A DNA stretch of 64,000 bases. Origin: Martelella limonii (GTDB taxonomy: Bacteria; Pseudomonadota; Alphaproteobacteria; Rhizobiales; Rhizobiaceae). Shown in pieces: positions 24,144 to 28,036 of this stretch. Made by a program: the position numbers and the translations under genes. The notes below the pieces were generated by a model. The model was given only the letters and a program-made list of their open reading frames with translations. It searched no databases and was not told the origin of the DNA. How positions within the stretch are numbered: the first letter of the stretch is position 1; every line of letters begins with the position of its first letter. The DNA is taken from positions 434,001 to 498,000 of the forward strand of contig NZ_JABUOU010000002.1 in the NCBI RefSeq assembly GCF_013344475.1. Reading direction: 5' to 3'.

Positions 24144-25259
24144 TCAGCCGCCGAGCGTGGGGTAGTCCACGTAGCCCTTGGCTTCGCCACCGAAAAGCGT
24201 TCTCTGATCCAACGCATTCAGCTGCGCATTGATCCGCAGGCGGCGCACCAAATCCGGATTGGCGATGAAAGCGCGCCCGAAACAGACGAGGTCGGCACGC
24301 TCCTTCTCCAGGGCGTCAATCGCAAGCTGGCGGTCATAGCCATTGTTGACCATCCAGGCGCCGGAACCATCGGTGCGGTAATAGGTTTCCCGCATCTCTT
24401 CGTAATCGAAGGGGCGGGGGCCCTGGGAGTAGCTGCGATCGCCCCCGGTCGCGCCCTCGATGATGTGGATATAGGCGAGATCATAGGCGCTGAGCTGGCT
24501 TGCGAGATAGTTGAACAGCGCCTGCGGATTGTCGTCCTGAATGTCGTTGGAGGGCGCCACCGGCGAGAGCCGGATTGCGGTGCGCCCGCCGCCGATCTCG
24601 CGCGAGATCGCGCCGACGATGTCGAACATGAAACGCGCCCGGTTCTCGATCGGCCCGCCGTAAAGATCGGTGCGCTGGTTGCTGCCGGACCGCAGGAACT
24701 GATCGACCAGATAACCGTTGGCGCCATGGATCTCGATGCCGTCGAAGCCCGCTTCCATGGCTCTCACGGCTGCGCGACGATAGTCGTCGATGATGCCGGA
24801 AATCTCGAAGGGCTTCAGAGCGCGCGGCATCGATGTCTCGATGAAATCGCTGGTCTGATCCGAGTAGACGACAAAGGTCTTGGCGCGGGCCTGGACGGCC
24901 GAAGGGGCCACCGGCGGGTCGCCGAAGGGCTGCAGCGATTTGTGCGATACCCGGCCGACATGCATCAACTGGCAGAAGATCTTGCCCCCGGCCTCGTGAA
25001 CGGCGGTGGTGACGTGGCGCCAGCCCTCGACGGCGGTATCGGTGTAGATGCCCGGCGCGTTGGAATAGCCCTGGCCCTGTTCGGTGATGGCGGTTGCTTC
25101 GGAAATGATCAGGCCGGCGCTGGCGCGCTGGCGGTAATATTCGACATTGAGTTCGTTGGGGACCGATTCCGGGGACCGGTTGCGCATCAGCGGCGCCATG
25201 ATGATGCGATTCTCGATGGTGACATCGCCGATCGTAATGGGATCAAAAAGGTTAGCCAT
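24144..25259 (-). CDS. Old Yellow Enzyme family alkene reductase
   Basis: A 371-residue FMN-dependent ene-reductase of the NemA/OYE family, reducing activated C=C bonds (enones, N-ethylmaleimide, nitro compounds) with NADPH. TIM-barrel motifs are MRNRSPESVPNELNVEYYRQ, the substrate-binding His/Asn in EIHGANGYLVDQFLRSG, NQRTDLYGGPIENRARF and FGRAFIANPDLVRRL. The ATG at 25259 begins ANLFDPITIG, the family N-terminus; an ATG 11 codons earlier is less likely. A role in electrophile detoxification is inferred from the family. Confidence 0.93.
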   Translation of the reverse strand: MANLFDPITIGDVTIENRIIMAPLMRNRSPESVPNELNVEYYRQRASAGLIISEATAITEQGQGYSNAPGIYTDTAVEGWRHVTTAVHEAGGKIFCQLMHVGRVSHKSLQPFGDPPVAPSAVQARAKTFVVYSDQTSDFIETSMPRALKPFEISGIIDDYRRAAVRAMEAGFDGIEIHGANGYLVDQFLRSGSNQRTDLYGGPIENRARFMFDIVGAISREIGGGRTAIRLSPVAPSNDIQDDNPQALFNYLASQLSAYDLAYIHIIEGATGGDRSYSQGPRPFDYEEMRETYYRTDGSGAWMVNNGYDRQLAIDALEKERADLVCFGRAFIANPDLVRRLRINAQLNALDQRTLFGGEAKGYVDYPTLGG

Positions 25260-25431
25260 CGAATTCCTTCCCCTGGCGGGTCGCGCGCTCAATCTGTAGC
25301 GGAAGCCCGGTGTCGACGCAATTTTCTGAAAGTCCCGCGATATCCCGAGCGCTACACCAACCGCTCTAGCGCAGAAACCGAAAAAAAGCGTTTACGCATG
25401 TTAAACGCCAGCAAAACACAGAAAAGAGCAT

Positions 25432-25539
25432 AAAAAAAAGGGCCACCAGATGGGGCCCTTGTAAGTGTGAAGGTAAAACCTCCAGAGGGGAACAGCTGCT
25501 GCAATACGACTCGCAAGCCGTATCGAAACGCATCAGCTA
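25432..25539 (-). ncRNA. AbcR-like small RNA, promoter-distal copy (alpha-r15 family)
   Basis: A predicted trans-acting sRNA of about 108 nt on the minus strand. It starts near 25539 (AGCTGATGCG), passes through the shared core whose plus-strand form is CCTCCAGAGGGGAACAGC (within 25475-25502), and ends in a strong intrinsic terminator: AAGGGCCCC-loop-GGCCCTT with eight T (25432-25460). Family knowledge: Rhizobiales carry tandem AbcR1/AbcR2 sRNAs beside lsrB/vtlR that repress ABC-transporter mRNAs with Hfq. Which copy corresponds to AbcR1 or AbcR2 is not decided. Confidence 0.85.
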
Positions 25540-25701
25540 TTATTTGATATGGTTCTTTTTTGTGCGCAATGCAATAGTTTTCATCGCGCGTTGCGAAAAA
25601 AAACACCACAGAAATACAGGCAAAAAAAGAGGGCCACCGGAAAACCGGGGCCCTTTGAGTTAGAAGGTCTCTCAAAACCTCCAGAGGGGAACAGCTGCTG
25701 C
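25475..25701. repeat. 28-bp perfect direct repeat shared by the two sRNA genes
   Basis: Identical 28-bp copies at 25475-25502 and 25674-25701, 199 bp apart, with core CCTCCAGAGGGGAACAGC. Outside the copies only the 5' start (GCATCAGCT on the plus strand, 25530-25538 and 25732-25740) and the terminator stems are alike. The pattern indicates an old duplication with selection on the RNA core. Confidence 0.95.
25546..25574 (-). promoter_or_regulatory. candidate promoter of the first sRNA
   Basis: Minus strand: TTGCAT (25569-25574), 17-nt spacer, CATATC (25546-25551), with the sRNA start expected near 25539. The spacing and position match the promoter of the second sRNA. Confidence 0.55.
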
Positions 25702-25740
25702 GGTGCACCAGGGAGAAGTTGGGCACCACCTGCATCAGCT
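25620..25740 (-). ncRNA. AbcR-like small RNA, lsrB-proximal copy (alpha-r15 family)
   Basis: A predicted sRNA of about 120 nt on the minus strand, starting near 25740 (AGCTGATGCAGG). It contains the same 28-nt core as its neighbour (25674-25701) and ends in an intrinsic terminator: AGGGCCCCGG-TTTT-CCGGTGGCCCT followed by CTTTTTTT (25621-25658). The single-stranded CU-rich core is the expected pairing region for target mRNAs. It sits between its twin and lsrB, all on the same strand, as in known AbcR loci. Confidence 0.85.
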
Positions 25741-25746
25741 GCGTGC

Positions 25747-25775
25747 TATATGCTCTCCGATTAGGCATTGGACAA
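25747..25775 (-). promoter_or_regulatory. candidate promoter of the lsrB-proximal sRNA
   Basis: Minus strand: TTGTCC (25770-25775), 17-nt spacer, CATATA (25747-25752), with transcription expected to start near 25740. This hexamer pair is better than that of the other copy. Confidence 0.6.
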
Positions 25776-25823
25776 TGCATTTTTGTGCATGGCTGCCATG
25801 CGATTGGCGAAAAATGCTGCAAG

Positions 25824-25863
25824 TTTTGCTTAAAATTGGAGCGGGTTCGATTTTAGCCTAAAA
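25824..25863. promoter_or_regulatory. AT-rich LysR-like sites upstream of the sRNA pair
   Basis: TTTTGCTTAAAA (25824-25835) and TTTTAG-C-CTAAAA (25851-25863). The second has perfect 6-bp arms and fits T-N11-A exactly. They lie about 85-120 bp upstream of the expected start of the lsrB-proximal sRNA, near where LysR regulators bind. In Brucella and Agrobacterium the LsrB/VtlR protein activates abcR2, so these are candidate binding sites. Confidence 0.35.
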
Positions 25864-25922
25864 TATAGTCATAAAATGCAAGCCAAAGGGCAGCCTTTTT
25901 GTGGCTTTCGCAAGCAGCAGTG

Positions 25923-25944: not shown

Positions 25945-26856
25945 TCAGAAGCTCCAGTTGCGGGCCTTGGCGACGATGAAATCGCGGAAGACTTTCAGCT
26001 TGGCGGAGTTTTTCAGTTCGTCGGGATAGCAGAAATAGGTGTCGAAGCTCGGCACATCTGCATGGGTGACGAGCTGCAGCAGGCCCGGGTCGCGGCCGAC
26101 GATATAATCCGGCAGCATCACGATGCCGATTCCAAGAAGCGCCGCGCGCTTGATCGAGGTCAGCGAATTGATCTGCAGATGCGCCGGTCGGGGATTGTCG
26201 GGCGAGCGGCCGGCAATTTCGAGCCAGTTGACATCGAGCAGATAGGCCGGTGCCGGTTCGCCGAAGGTGATGATCCTATGATTGTCCAGATCTTCCAGCG
26301 CCTGGGGTTCGCCATGCCGGTTTATGTAGGAAGGCGAGGCATAGACATGCATGTGCACGGTGAACAGCTTGCGCTGGATCAGGTCCGGCTGCTGAGGCTG
26401 ACGCAGGCGGATGGCGCAGTCCGCATGGCGCATGTTCACGTCCAACTCCTCGTTGTCGAGAATCAGCTGGATCTGCATGTCGGGATAGAGCTGCAGGAAT
26501 TCCTGCACCTTGTCGGTGAGCCAGCCCTGGCCGAGGCCGACGGTGGTGGTCACGCGCAGCTTGCCGGAGGGTTTCTCCTTGGTTTCCGTCAGGCGCGAAC
26601 GCACGCCCTCGAGCTTCAGAAGAACGTCATTGGCCGTGCGGTAAAGCAATTCGCCCTGTTCGGTCAGAATCAGGCCGCGGGCATGGCGGTGGAACAGCTT
26701 GACGCCGACATCCTGTTCCAGCGCAGAGACCTGGCGGCTGATCGCCGACTGCGAAAGATGGAGCTTGTCGGCGGCATGCGTGAACGATCCTGCCTCCGCC
26801 GCGGCATGAAATATCCTGAGCTTGTCCCAGTCCAGAGGCATGCTCGTGCTTTTCAT
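25945..26856 (-). CDS. lsrB: LysR-type regulator, LsrB/VtlR orthologue
   Basis: A 303-residue LysR regulator with an N-terminal winged helix (FTHAADKLHLSQSAISRQV) and an effector domain. Location directly after trxB and before tandem AbcR sRNAs identifies it as LsrB (Sinorhizobium) or VtlR (Agrobacterium, Brucella), which controls symbiosis, oxidative stress, lipopolysaccharide genes and abcR2. Cys147 (RHADCAIRL) aligns by position with the redox-sensing Cys146 described for S. meliloti LsrB; a second cysteine is Cys276. The ATG is 5 bp after the trxB stop, so the two genes are one operon. Confidence 0.92.
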   Translation of the reverse strand: MKSTSMPLDWDKLRIFHAAAEAGSFTHAADKLHLSQSAISRQVSALEQDVGVKLFHRHARGLILTEQGELLYRTANDVLLKLEGVRSRLTETKEKPSGKLRVTTTVGLGQGWLTDKVQEFLQLYPDMQIQLILDNEELDVNMRHADCAIRLRQPQQPDLIQRKLFTVHMHVYASPSYINRHGEPQALEDLDNHRIITFGEPAPAYLLDVNWLEIAGRSPDNPRPAHLQINSLTSIKRAALLGIGIVMLPDYIVGRDPGLLQLVTHADVPSFDTYFCYPDELKNSAKLKVFRDFIVAKARNWSF

Positions 26857-26861
26857 AAACC

Positions 26862-27839
26862 TTACTCCGCGGCAGCCAGGGTGCCGGTTTTCAGCGCTGC
26901 CAGAAAACGTTCAGCCTCGAGAGCCGCCATGCAGCCCATGCCGGCGGCGGTCACCGCCTGCCGGTAATTGTCGTCGGTGACATCGCCGGCGCCGTAAACG
27001 CCCTCGATGCTGGTCTTGGTCGTGCCCGGTTCCGTCCACAGATAGCCATTCGGCTTCAGCCGCAGCTGGTCGCGGATCAGGGAAACCTGGGGCGTATGGC
27101 CGATCGCGATGAACACGCCATCCGCCGGAATTGTCTGCTTTTCGCCGGTCTTGACGTTCTTCACCTCGACGCCGGTGACGGACGGCGGCAGCGGCGGCAC
27201 GGCGGTGGTGCCGACGATATCTTCCACCGCATGGTCCCAGACGACCCTCACATTTTCGAGCGCGAACAGGCGTTCCTGAAGAATGCGTTCGGCGCGGAAA
27301 CTGTCGCGCCGGTGAACCACCGTCACGGACTTTGCGATATTGGCGAGGTAGAGCGCCTCCTCGACTGCGGAATTGCCGCCGCCGACGACCACGACATCCT
27401 TGCCGCGATAGAAGAAGCCGTCACAGGTCGCGCATGCTGATACGCCGCCCCCGTTAAAAGTCTGCTCGCTCTCCAGGCCAAGCCACTTCGCCTGGGCACC
27501 GGTGGCGAGAATCACCGTCTCGGCGGTCCAGACCTCACCCGAATCGGTGGTTGCCGTGAAGGGGCGCTTCGAGAGGTCCAGCTTCGTCACGATATCGTTG
27601 ATGATTTCGGTGCCGACATTCTCGGCCTGCGCCAGCATCTGTTCCATCAGCCACGGGCCCTGGATCGGCTCGGCGAAACCGGGGTAGTTCTCGACATCGG
27701 TGGTGATCGTCAGCTGGCCGCCCTGCTCGAGGCCTGCAATCAGCACCGGCTTCATCATTGCGCGCGCGGCGTAGATGGCGGCGGTATAGCCGGCCGGGCC
27801 TGAACCGATGATGAGCACCTGCGTATGGTGGTCTGCCAT
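26862..27839 (-). CDS. trxB: thioredoxin-disulfide reductase
   Basis: Reduces thioredoxin with NADPH through FAD. The 325-residue protein begins ADHHTQVLIIGSGPAGYTAA (FAD-binding GxGxxG), has the redox-active CATC in SACATCDGFFYRG, the NADPH-binding GGGNSAVEEALYLA, and the C-terminal GAGDVTDDNYRQAVTAAG FAD block. The ATG at 27839 is the family start. It is divergent from the Lrp-type regulator and cotranscribed with lsrB. Confidence 0.98.
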   Translation of the reverse strand: MADHHTQVLIIGSGPAGYTAAIYAARAMMKPVLIAGLEQGGQLTITTDVENYPGFAEPIQGPWLMEQMLAQAENVGTEIINDIVTKLDLSKRPFTATTDSGEVWTAETVILATGAQAKWLGLESEQTFNGGGVSACATCDGFFYRGKDVVVVGGGNSAVEEALYLANIAKSVTVVHRRDSFRAERILQERLFALENVRVVWDHAVEDIVGTTAVPPLPPSVTGVEVKNVKTGEKQTIPADGVFIAIGHTPQVSLIRDQLRLKPNGYLWTEPGTTKTSIEGVYGAGDVTDDNYRQAVTAAGMGCMAALEAERFLAALKTGTLAAAE

Positions 27840-28036
27840 GTCTGAATCCTTTTGAGCGCACCGATGACGGTACGCCGCTCTAATTGCAAGTCTTGCCCCA
27901 TTTATGGCTGCCAGGGGCTTTCTTTCAAGGTCGCGCGGCGCGCTACCAACAGCCGATTTCATTCTGTTGAAAGAATCTGGCTGCATGTTGTAATAAAATT
28001 GCTTATACGCCTGTTTTCCCGCCTCAGGAGCCATGA

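Follow-up and report, generated by a model that had tools for sequence, protein, structure and literature searches.

The locus downstream of lsrB in Martelella limonii raises the question of whether the two units encoded there in tandem belong to the AbcR family, whose RNAs repress transporter mRNAs in an Hfq-dependent manner, and of whether the two siblings would reach their targets in the same way. In a scan of the window, the 64-kb (64,000-nucleotide) stretch of DNA that was analysed, the lsrB-proximal unit 1 matched Rfam RF02345 (ar15, AbcR family) with 101.5 bits (E 3.7e-20, 25740-25625) and the lsrB-distal unit 2 with 78.6 bits (E 2.1e-14, 25538-25434), both on the minus strand and over the full length of the model. 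Given a gathering score of 40 for RF02345, both units were far above the threshold in the covariance-model check that the original prediction had proposed, and its assignment of AbcR1/AbcR2 (alpha-r15) RNAs to this strand, with the ends it had predicted, was borne out by the two matches. A permissive Rfam scan of 25300-25900 (E <=0.01) returned only these two ar15 matches, two lower-scoring overlaps from the same clan being left out.

Other shared features that had been read from the letters were confirmed from sequence and fold: a perfect 28-bp block is common to both units (25475-25502 and 25674-25701, 199 bp apart), both begin with AGCTGATGC (at 25740 and 25538, 202 bp apart as against 199 for the cores), and both end in a GGGCC/GGCCC terminator followed by a T run. 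Each unit is predicted to fold into three hairpins (z of -2.89 and -4.28 relative to shuffles), and both have the family's Rho-independent terminator as well as the motif aSD2 between hairpins 1 and 2. The claimed -35/-10 pairs with 17-nt spacing can likewise be read (Table 1), and the units have the claimed position after trxB-lsrB, where the LysR-type gene and the PF07992 gene adjoin the units; trxB is the name we assume for the latter, which Pfam itself places only in the pyridine nucleotide-disulphide oxidoreductase family. A generic consensus scan found no promoters and missed the terminators of both units, probably owing to a one-base bulge in the stem and to hexamers unlike those of E. 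coli. It is very probable, judging from these sequence features, that the units make up the AbcR1/AbcR2 pair of Martelella, with unit 1 under LsrB control. Such a pair is ordinary for Rhizobiaceae, and the system is already known in kind.

Table 1. Coordinates of the sRNA units, their elements and the neighbouring genes in the window.
Feature	Position	Strand	Basis
Unit 1, AbcR1-type sRNA (lsrB-proximal)	25620..25740	(-)	RF02345 match, three-hairpin fold
Unit 2, AbcR2-type sRNA (lsrB-distal)	25432..25538	(-)	RF02345 match, three-hairpin fold
aSD1 of unit 1, UUCUCCC, hairpin-1 loop	25711..25717	(-)	At published aSD1/M1 position
aSD2 of unit 1, UUCCCCUC	25684..25691	(-)	Invariant 13/13, published motif
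aSD2 of unit 2, UUCCCCUC	25485..25492	(-)	Invariant 13/13
Unit 2 hairpin-1 apex, predicted closed stem and tetraloop, aSD1 absent	25503..25529	(-)	Predicted fold
Unit 1 terminator	25622..25654	(-)	Hairpin -20.1 kcal/mol, T run
Unit 2 terminator	25432..25460	(-)	Hairpin -15.1 kcal/mol, T run
Unit 1 LsrB/VtlR box, perfect palindrome GCATGGCAGCCATGC, -61 to -47	25787..25801	(-)	Published consensus present
Unit 1 promoter, ATTGTC-N17-GCATAT	25748..25776	(-)	Sequence reading
Unit 2 promoter element, TGAAAACTrTTGCAnyGCGCACAAAAAAGAACCATAT, including ATTGCA-N17-CCATAT	25547..25583	(-)	Sequence reading
lsrB/vtlR, LysR-type regulator adjoining the sRNAs	25945..26856	(-)	PF00126, PF03466
trxB-type thioredoxin reductase	26862..28034	(-)	PF07992
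FMN oxidoreductase, downstream, outside the sRNA system	24144..25292	(-)	PF00724

In the published account for S. meliloti, mutation showed that aSD1, located in the loop of hairpin 1, and aSD2, located between hairpins 1 and 2, act independently of each other (PMC8844928); M1 and M2 of Brucella correspond to aSD1 and aSD2 (PMC5461406). In Martelella, aSD2 lies inside the shared core, which is 100% identical in both units in 13/13 genomes. The two units differ at hairpin 1. In unit 1 its loop is predicted to be open, with 7-12 nt, in the 13 Martelella genomes; TCTCC is found in the predicted loop in all of them and TCTCCC in 12, the full S. meliloti CUCCUCCC being absent. At the same apex of unit 2, a stem of 8-10 pairs capped by a loop of 3-6 nt is predicted across the 13 genomes, and CUCCC is absent in 13/13 and CUCC in 10/13. 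Since unit 2 retains CUCC in its tetraloop in the remaining three (G001, G007 and G011; duplex energy -11.2 kcal/mol), the loss of aSD1 is incomplete in Martelella. Duplex energies with the aSD1 complement GGGAGGAG, which leave accessibility uncounted, were -10.8 to -13.6 kcal/mol for hairpin 1 of unit 1 in the 13 genomes and -3.0 to -6.9 kcal/mol for that of unit 2 in 10/13. Mean pairwise identity of the hairpin-1 apex among the 13 genomes is 93% for unit 1 versus 55% for unit 2, and single-sequence folds retain the unit 2 stem while its pairs vary from genome to genome. Unit 2 stays in RF02345 despite lacking aSD1 because Rfam defines the family by its model, and a few model-matching units elsewhere are likewise without CUCCC. 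The original prediction had located the divergence in the stretch from the shared core to the terminators and suggested that the targets may differ for that reason; the units do differ there, but the divergence in known motifs sits in hairpin 1, 5' of the core, because aSD1 is lost at that point and aSD2 is shared in the core.

By analogy with relatives, the Martelella units would be expressed as Hfq-dependent, trans-acting sRNAs that block translation of transporter and metabolic mRNAs by base-pairing at their ribosome-binding sites. Unit 1 (AbcR1) would be activated by the adjoining LsrB via the palindrome upstream of it and would pair through both aSD1 and aSD2. Unit 2 (AbcR2) would have its own promoter, which is without an LsrB box and possibly of the RpoH type, and, with its hairpin 1 closed up and aSD1 lost, this RNA would probably silence aSD2 targets only. 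We rate the chances as evenly balanced that AbcR2 of Martelella represents a natural single-motif AbcR, in which an open targeting loop has become a closed stem and which acts via aSD2 alone. An unlikely alternative is that, in place of the lost aSD1, the altered hairpin 1 of unit 2 acquired a new target motif specific to Martelella; a changed apex sequence with pairing kept in the predicted folds speaks for such a gain, but the variation of the loop among Martelella genomes (UGCG, UCUG, AUCCCA, GUUUGA, GUU, CUCC and others) suggests no conserved seed. It is more improbable still that unit 2 is a copy decaying toward non-function, since the lower Rfam score and lower hairpin-1 identity that it has relative to unit 1 are set against an invariant aSD2 core, a retained hairpin-1 stem and terminator, and a near-invariant promoter. 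Finally, a 156-aa TTG-start ORF (25352-25822, minus strand) is open across both units in the M. limonii genome but is almost certainly not a real protein gene, as its frame is broken among Martelella, where hairpin 1 varies in length and the two starts lie 201, 202 or 203 bp apart.

Among the best 80 of 577 LsrB relatives, all of whose loci were scanned for ar15, the 72 loci from outside Martelella keep CTCCC in 72/72 first units, 48/50 second units and one third unit; the two second units without it are those of Rhizobium sp. CG5 (L058) and Neorhizobium petrolearium (L080). In 20 tandem pairs from other genomes of the family, which were picked non-randomly from the matches in the family sample and three of which probably duplicate members of the lsrB set, CTCCC is missing from two second units (G029 and G131, from the same genus) and from one first unit (G108). 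Loss of aSD1 from one copy is uncommon among the sampled loci, yet it is found in more than one genus, and it seems to have arisen independently in a few further lineages of Rhizobiaceae. Published descriptions touch on such variation: in alpha-r15 duplicates the hairpin-1 loop is reported as variable and the aSD motif as shared (PMC3712013), and the M1 of S. meliloti AbcR2 is reported to carry a one-letter change that may weaken it (PMC5461406). Elsewhere both AbcR motifs are called well conserved (PMC7143759). None of the titles and abstract openings in a literature search was on Martelella AbcR or on an AbcR without aSD1, although an earlier notice is possible, and Martelella is unmentioned in PMC8844928.

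With regard to the input of the two units, the S. meliloti AbcR1 promoter is given as CTTGAC-N17-CTATAT with an LsrB box, GCAT-N3-TG-N3-T, at -61 to -49 (PMC8844928). This consensus is present at the unit 1 site in 13/13 Martelella genomes, whereas none of the 13 has an LsrB box within 110 bp of unit 2. The box is read forward at -61 in four genomes and on the other strand at -59 in nine, in the latter case within the 15-bp palindrome at -61 to -47. The unit 1 promoter parts TGCCTAAT and GCATA are also kept in all 13. In the M. limonii genome, GCATGGCWGCCATGC occurs exactly at the unit 1 site alone, and at <=2 mismatches it has 30 sites (a palindrome being counted on each strand) versus 8 for a control read backwards; nine of the other GCATGGCWGCCATGC-like sites were fetched, and five of the six displayed have a long ORF starting inside the site.

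The box was found upstream of 77 first units among the best 80 of the 577 lsrB loci, and in 14/20 first and 3/20 second units of the tandem pairs; it is not universal in the family, given that six of these 20 first units are without an exact box. Among downstream units in the 80 loci, CTCCC is kept in 44/44 with a box and in 5/15 without one, eight of these 15 belonging to one genus, and in the 20 pairs it is retained in 15 of the 17 box-less second units. We considered the LsrB box as a cause of aSD1 retention but propose no such rule, in view of these 15 box-less units and of G108, which has a box and no CTCCC. The first unit of G108 (L213), with a box and without the motif, is the reverse of the arrangement in Martelella.

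Unit 2 has a putative promoter of its own. Its -35/-10 pair spans 25575-25547 within a 37-bp element that is near-invariant in 13/13 Martelella genomes, with a mean conservation within the genus of 1.84 bits versus 1.47 for the core promoter of unit 1, and the right-hand 28 bases of the element occur once in the genome at <=3 mismatches. Immediately upstream of the element there is a conserved T tract with CGCA after it. The AbcR2 promoter of S. meliloti is described as RpoH1-type, CTTGAA-N16-CCTATAT (PMC8844928). By hand count unit 2 agrees with this consensus at 9/13 letters (ATTGCA-N16-ACCATAT, the same spacing) and unit 1 at 7/13, which is a small difference, and the spacing is uninformative on the type of sigma factor because N16 with a 7-letter -10 element equals N17 with a 6-letter one. 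TTGAA and CCCATAT are present at a box-less second unit in several other genomes. An RpoH-type stress promoter for unit 2, as in S. meliloti, is weakly supported by this likeness. Because AbcR2 is without both aSD1 and the LsrB box, the siblings probably differ in input as well as in output.

Copy number gives the background to the pair. A genome search identified two ar15 copies in M. limonii, and exactly two were present in 13/13 Martelella genomes, that of M. limonii included; this set shares several assemblies with the Martelella loci among the 80 and is not independent of them. In a family sample of 151 genomes, 114 had an ar15 match at E <=0.001 and 99 had one above the cut-off under stricter filters. 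The 80 lsrB loci held 139 ar15 matches, as 22 single, 57 double and one triple, the last being Metarhizobium album (L062) with three tandem copies after lsrB. Two genomes of the family sample had six (G026) and five (G111) matches, four of those in G111 being close together on one contig.

LsrB of the window, the adjoining regulator, is 87-99% identical to the best 80 of its 577 relatives, which with few exceptions are from Rhizobiaceae or from records so titled, and 94-99% identical to LsrB of eight loci that bear the title Martelella or, in a single case, Marinicella sp. W31. The Marinicella sp. W31 record (L006) carries a Martelella-like LsrB locus (98% identity) and an Arenimonas sp. (MAG) record (L022) a Rhizobiaceae-like one (89%); it looks as though these two record names are wrong or the contigs mixed. 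Within the 303-aa ORF cysteine occurs twice, at 147 and 276, and just these two are found in LsrB of 8/8 Martelella loci and six others among the 80. In A. tumefaciens LsrB, C144 and C273 are described as a conserved pair and proposed thiol switch, and of the changes studied only that of C273 is reported as harmful (PMC11975290). The Brucella homologue is also said there to have two cysteines (PMC11975290). Owing to the equal offset of three, C147 and C276 of the window LsrB correspond to C144 and C273.

Candidate targets were sought in the M. limonii genome as the complement of a motif followed by ATG, using aSD2, aSD1 of unit 1 and a control motif. The aSD2 search gave 23 matches, which fall on 21 sites, the aSD1 search 23 sites, and the control 29 matches on 28 sites; the matched ATGs opened ORFs of >=50 aa in 15, 18 and 17 cases, respectively, of which 10, 14 and 12 were Pfam-positive, these counts dropping ORFs <50 aa, ORFs without a Pfam match and duplicate matches per site. 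Parts of ABC transporters made up 5/10 (aSD2), 4/14 (aSD1) and 3/12 (control), numbers too small to separate the groups. The aSD1 set additionally included a TRAP transporter and a tripartite-tricarboxylate transporter, the second from a mid-profile match only. Candidate leads for aSD2 include a substrate-binding protein of the Peripla_BP_5 family (L146), the SBP_bac_1 protein L163, the ABC permease L145 and the ABC ATPases L151 and L154, and those for aSD1 include NMT1-type (L124) and SBP_bac_3 (L126) substrate-binding proteins. The longer pattern AGAGGGGAA-N-ATG has two sites in the genome. Between unit 2 and the FMN oxidoreductase gene lies a third terminator-like hairpin, GGCGTTTAAC...GTAAACGC with a T run (25387-25409), whose core, as GCGTTTACGC or GCGTATACGC, is also seen in several other Martelella; possible roles for it are those of an operator and of a backup terminator.

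If Martelella AbcR2 does act through aSD2 alone, the pair would have parted into one RNA with both motifs, controlled by LsrB, and one confined to aSD2 and driven from a different promoter. The 5' hairpin has been proposed to set the target specificity of AbcR siblings (PMC3712013). As an apparent evolved aSD1-minus version, Martelella AbcR2 would amount to a natural experiment, in which comparison of the siblings could tell which targets need aSD1.

The arrangement can be set beside known AbcR systems, that of S. meliloti through published descriptions and that of A. tumefaciens likewise, rather than base by base. In A. tumefaciens, the LsrB orthologue VtlR is described as binding and activating abcR1, with abcR2 promoter DNA reported as no competitor for this binding (PMC7486931). 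Brucella abortus AbcR1 and AbcR2 have the motifs M1 (CUCCCA) and M2 (GUUCCC), and M2 overlaps the aSD2 region that is kept in Martelella; unlike in Martelella, VtlR is described as driving abcR2 and M1 is in both RNAs (PMC5461406). The Martelella pair resembles AbcR1 and AbcR2 of S. meliloti, as these are described, in its tandem position beside lsrB, its three hairpins and its aSD2 (PMC3712013, PMC8844928, PMC7143759), and also in that AbcR1 alone has an upstream LsrB box, placed at -61, and that AbcR2 has a separate promoter, which in Martelella is a partial fit to the RpoH1 consensus. It differs in aSD1, which is UUCUCCC in Martelella unit 1 as against CUCCUCCC in S. meliloti; and whereas in S. 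meliloti AbcR2 is described, as is AbcR1, with this aSD1 in the loop of hairpin 1, the motif has been lost from unit 2 of Martelella.
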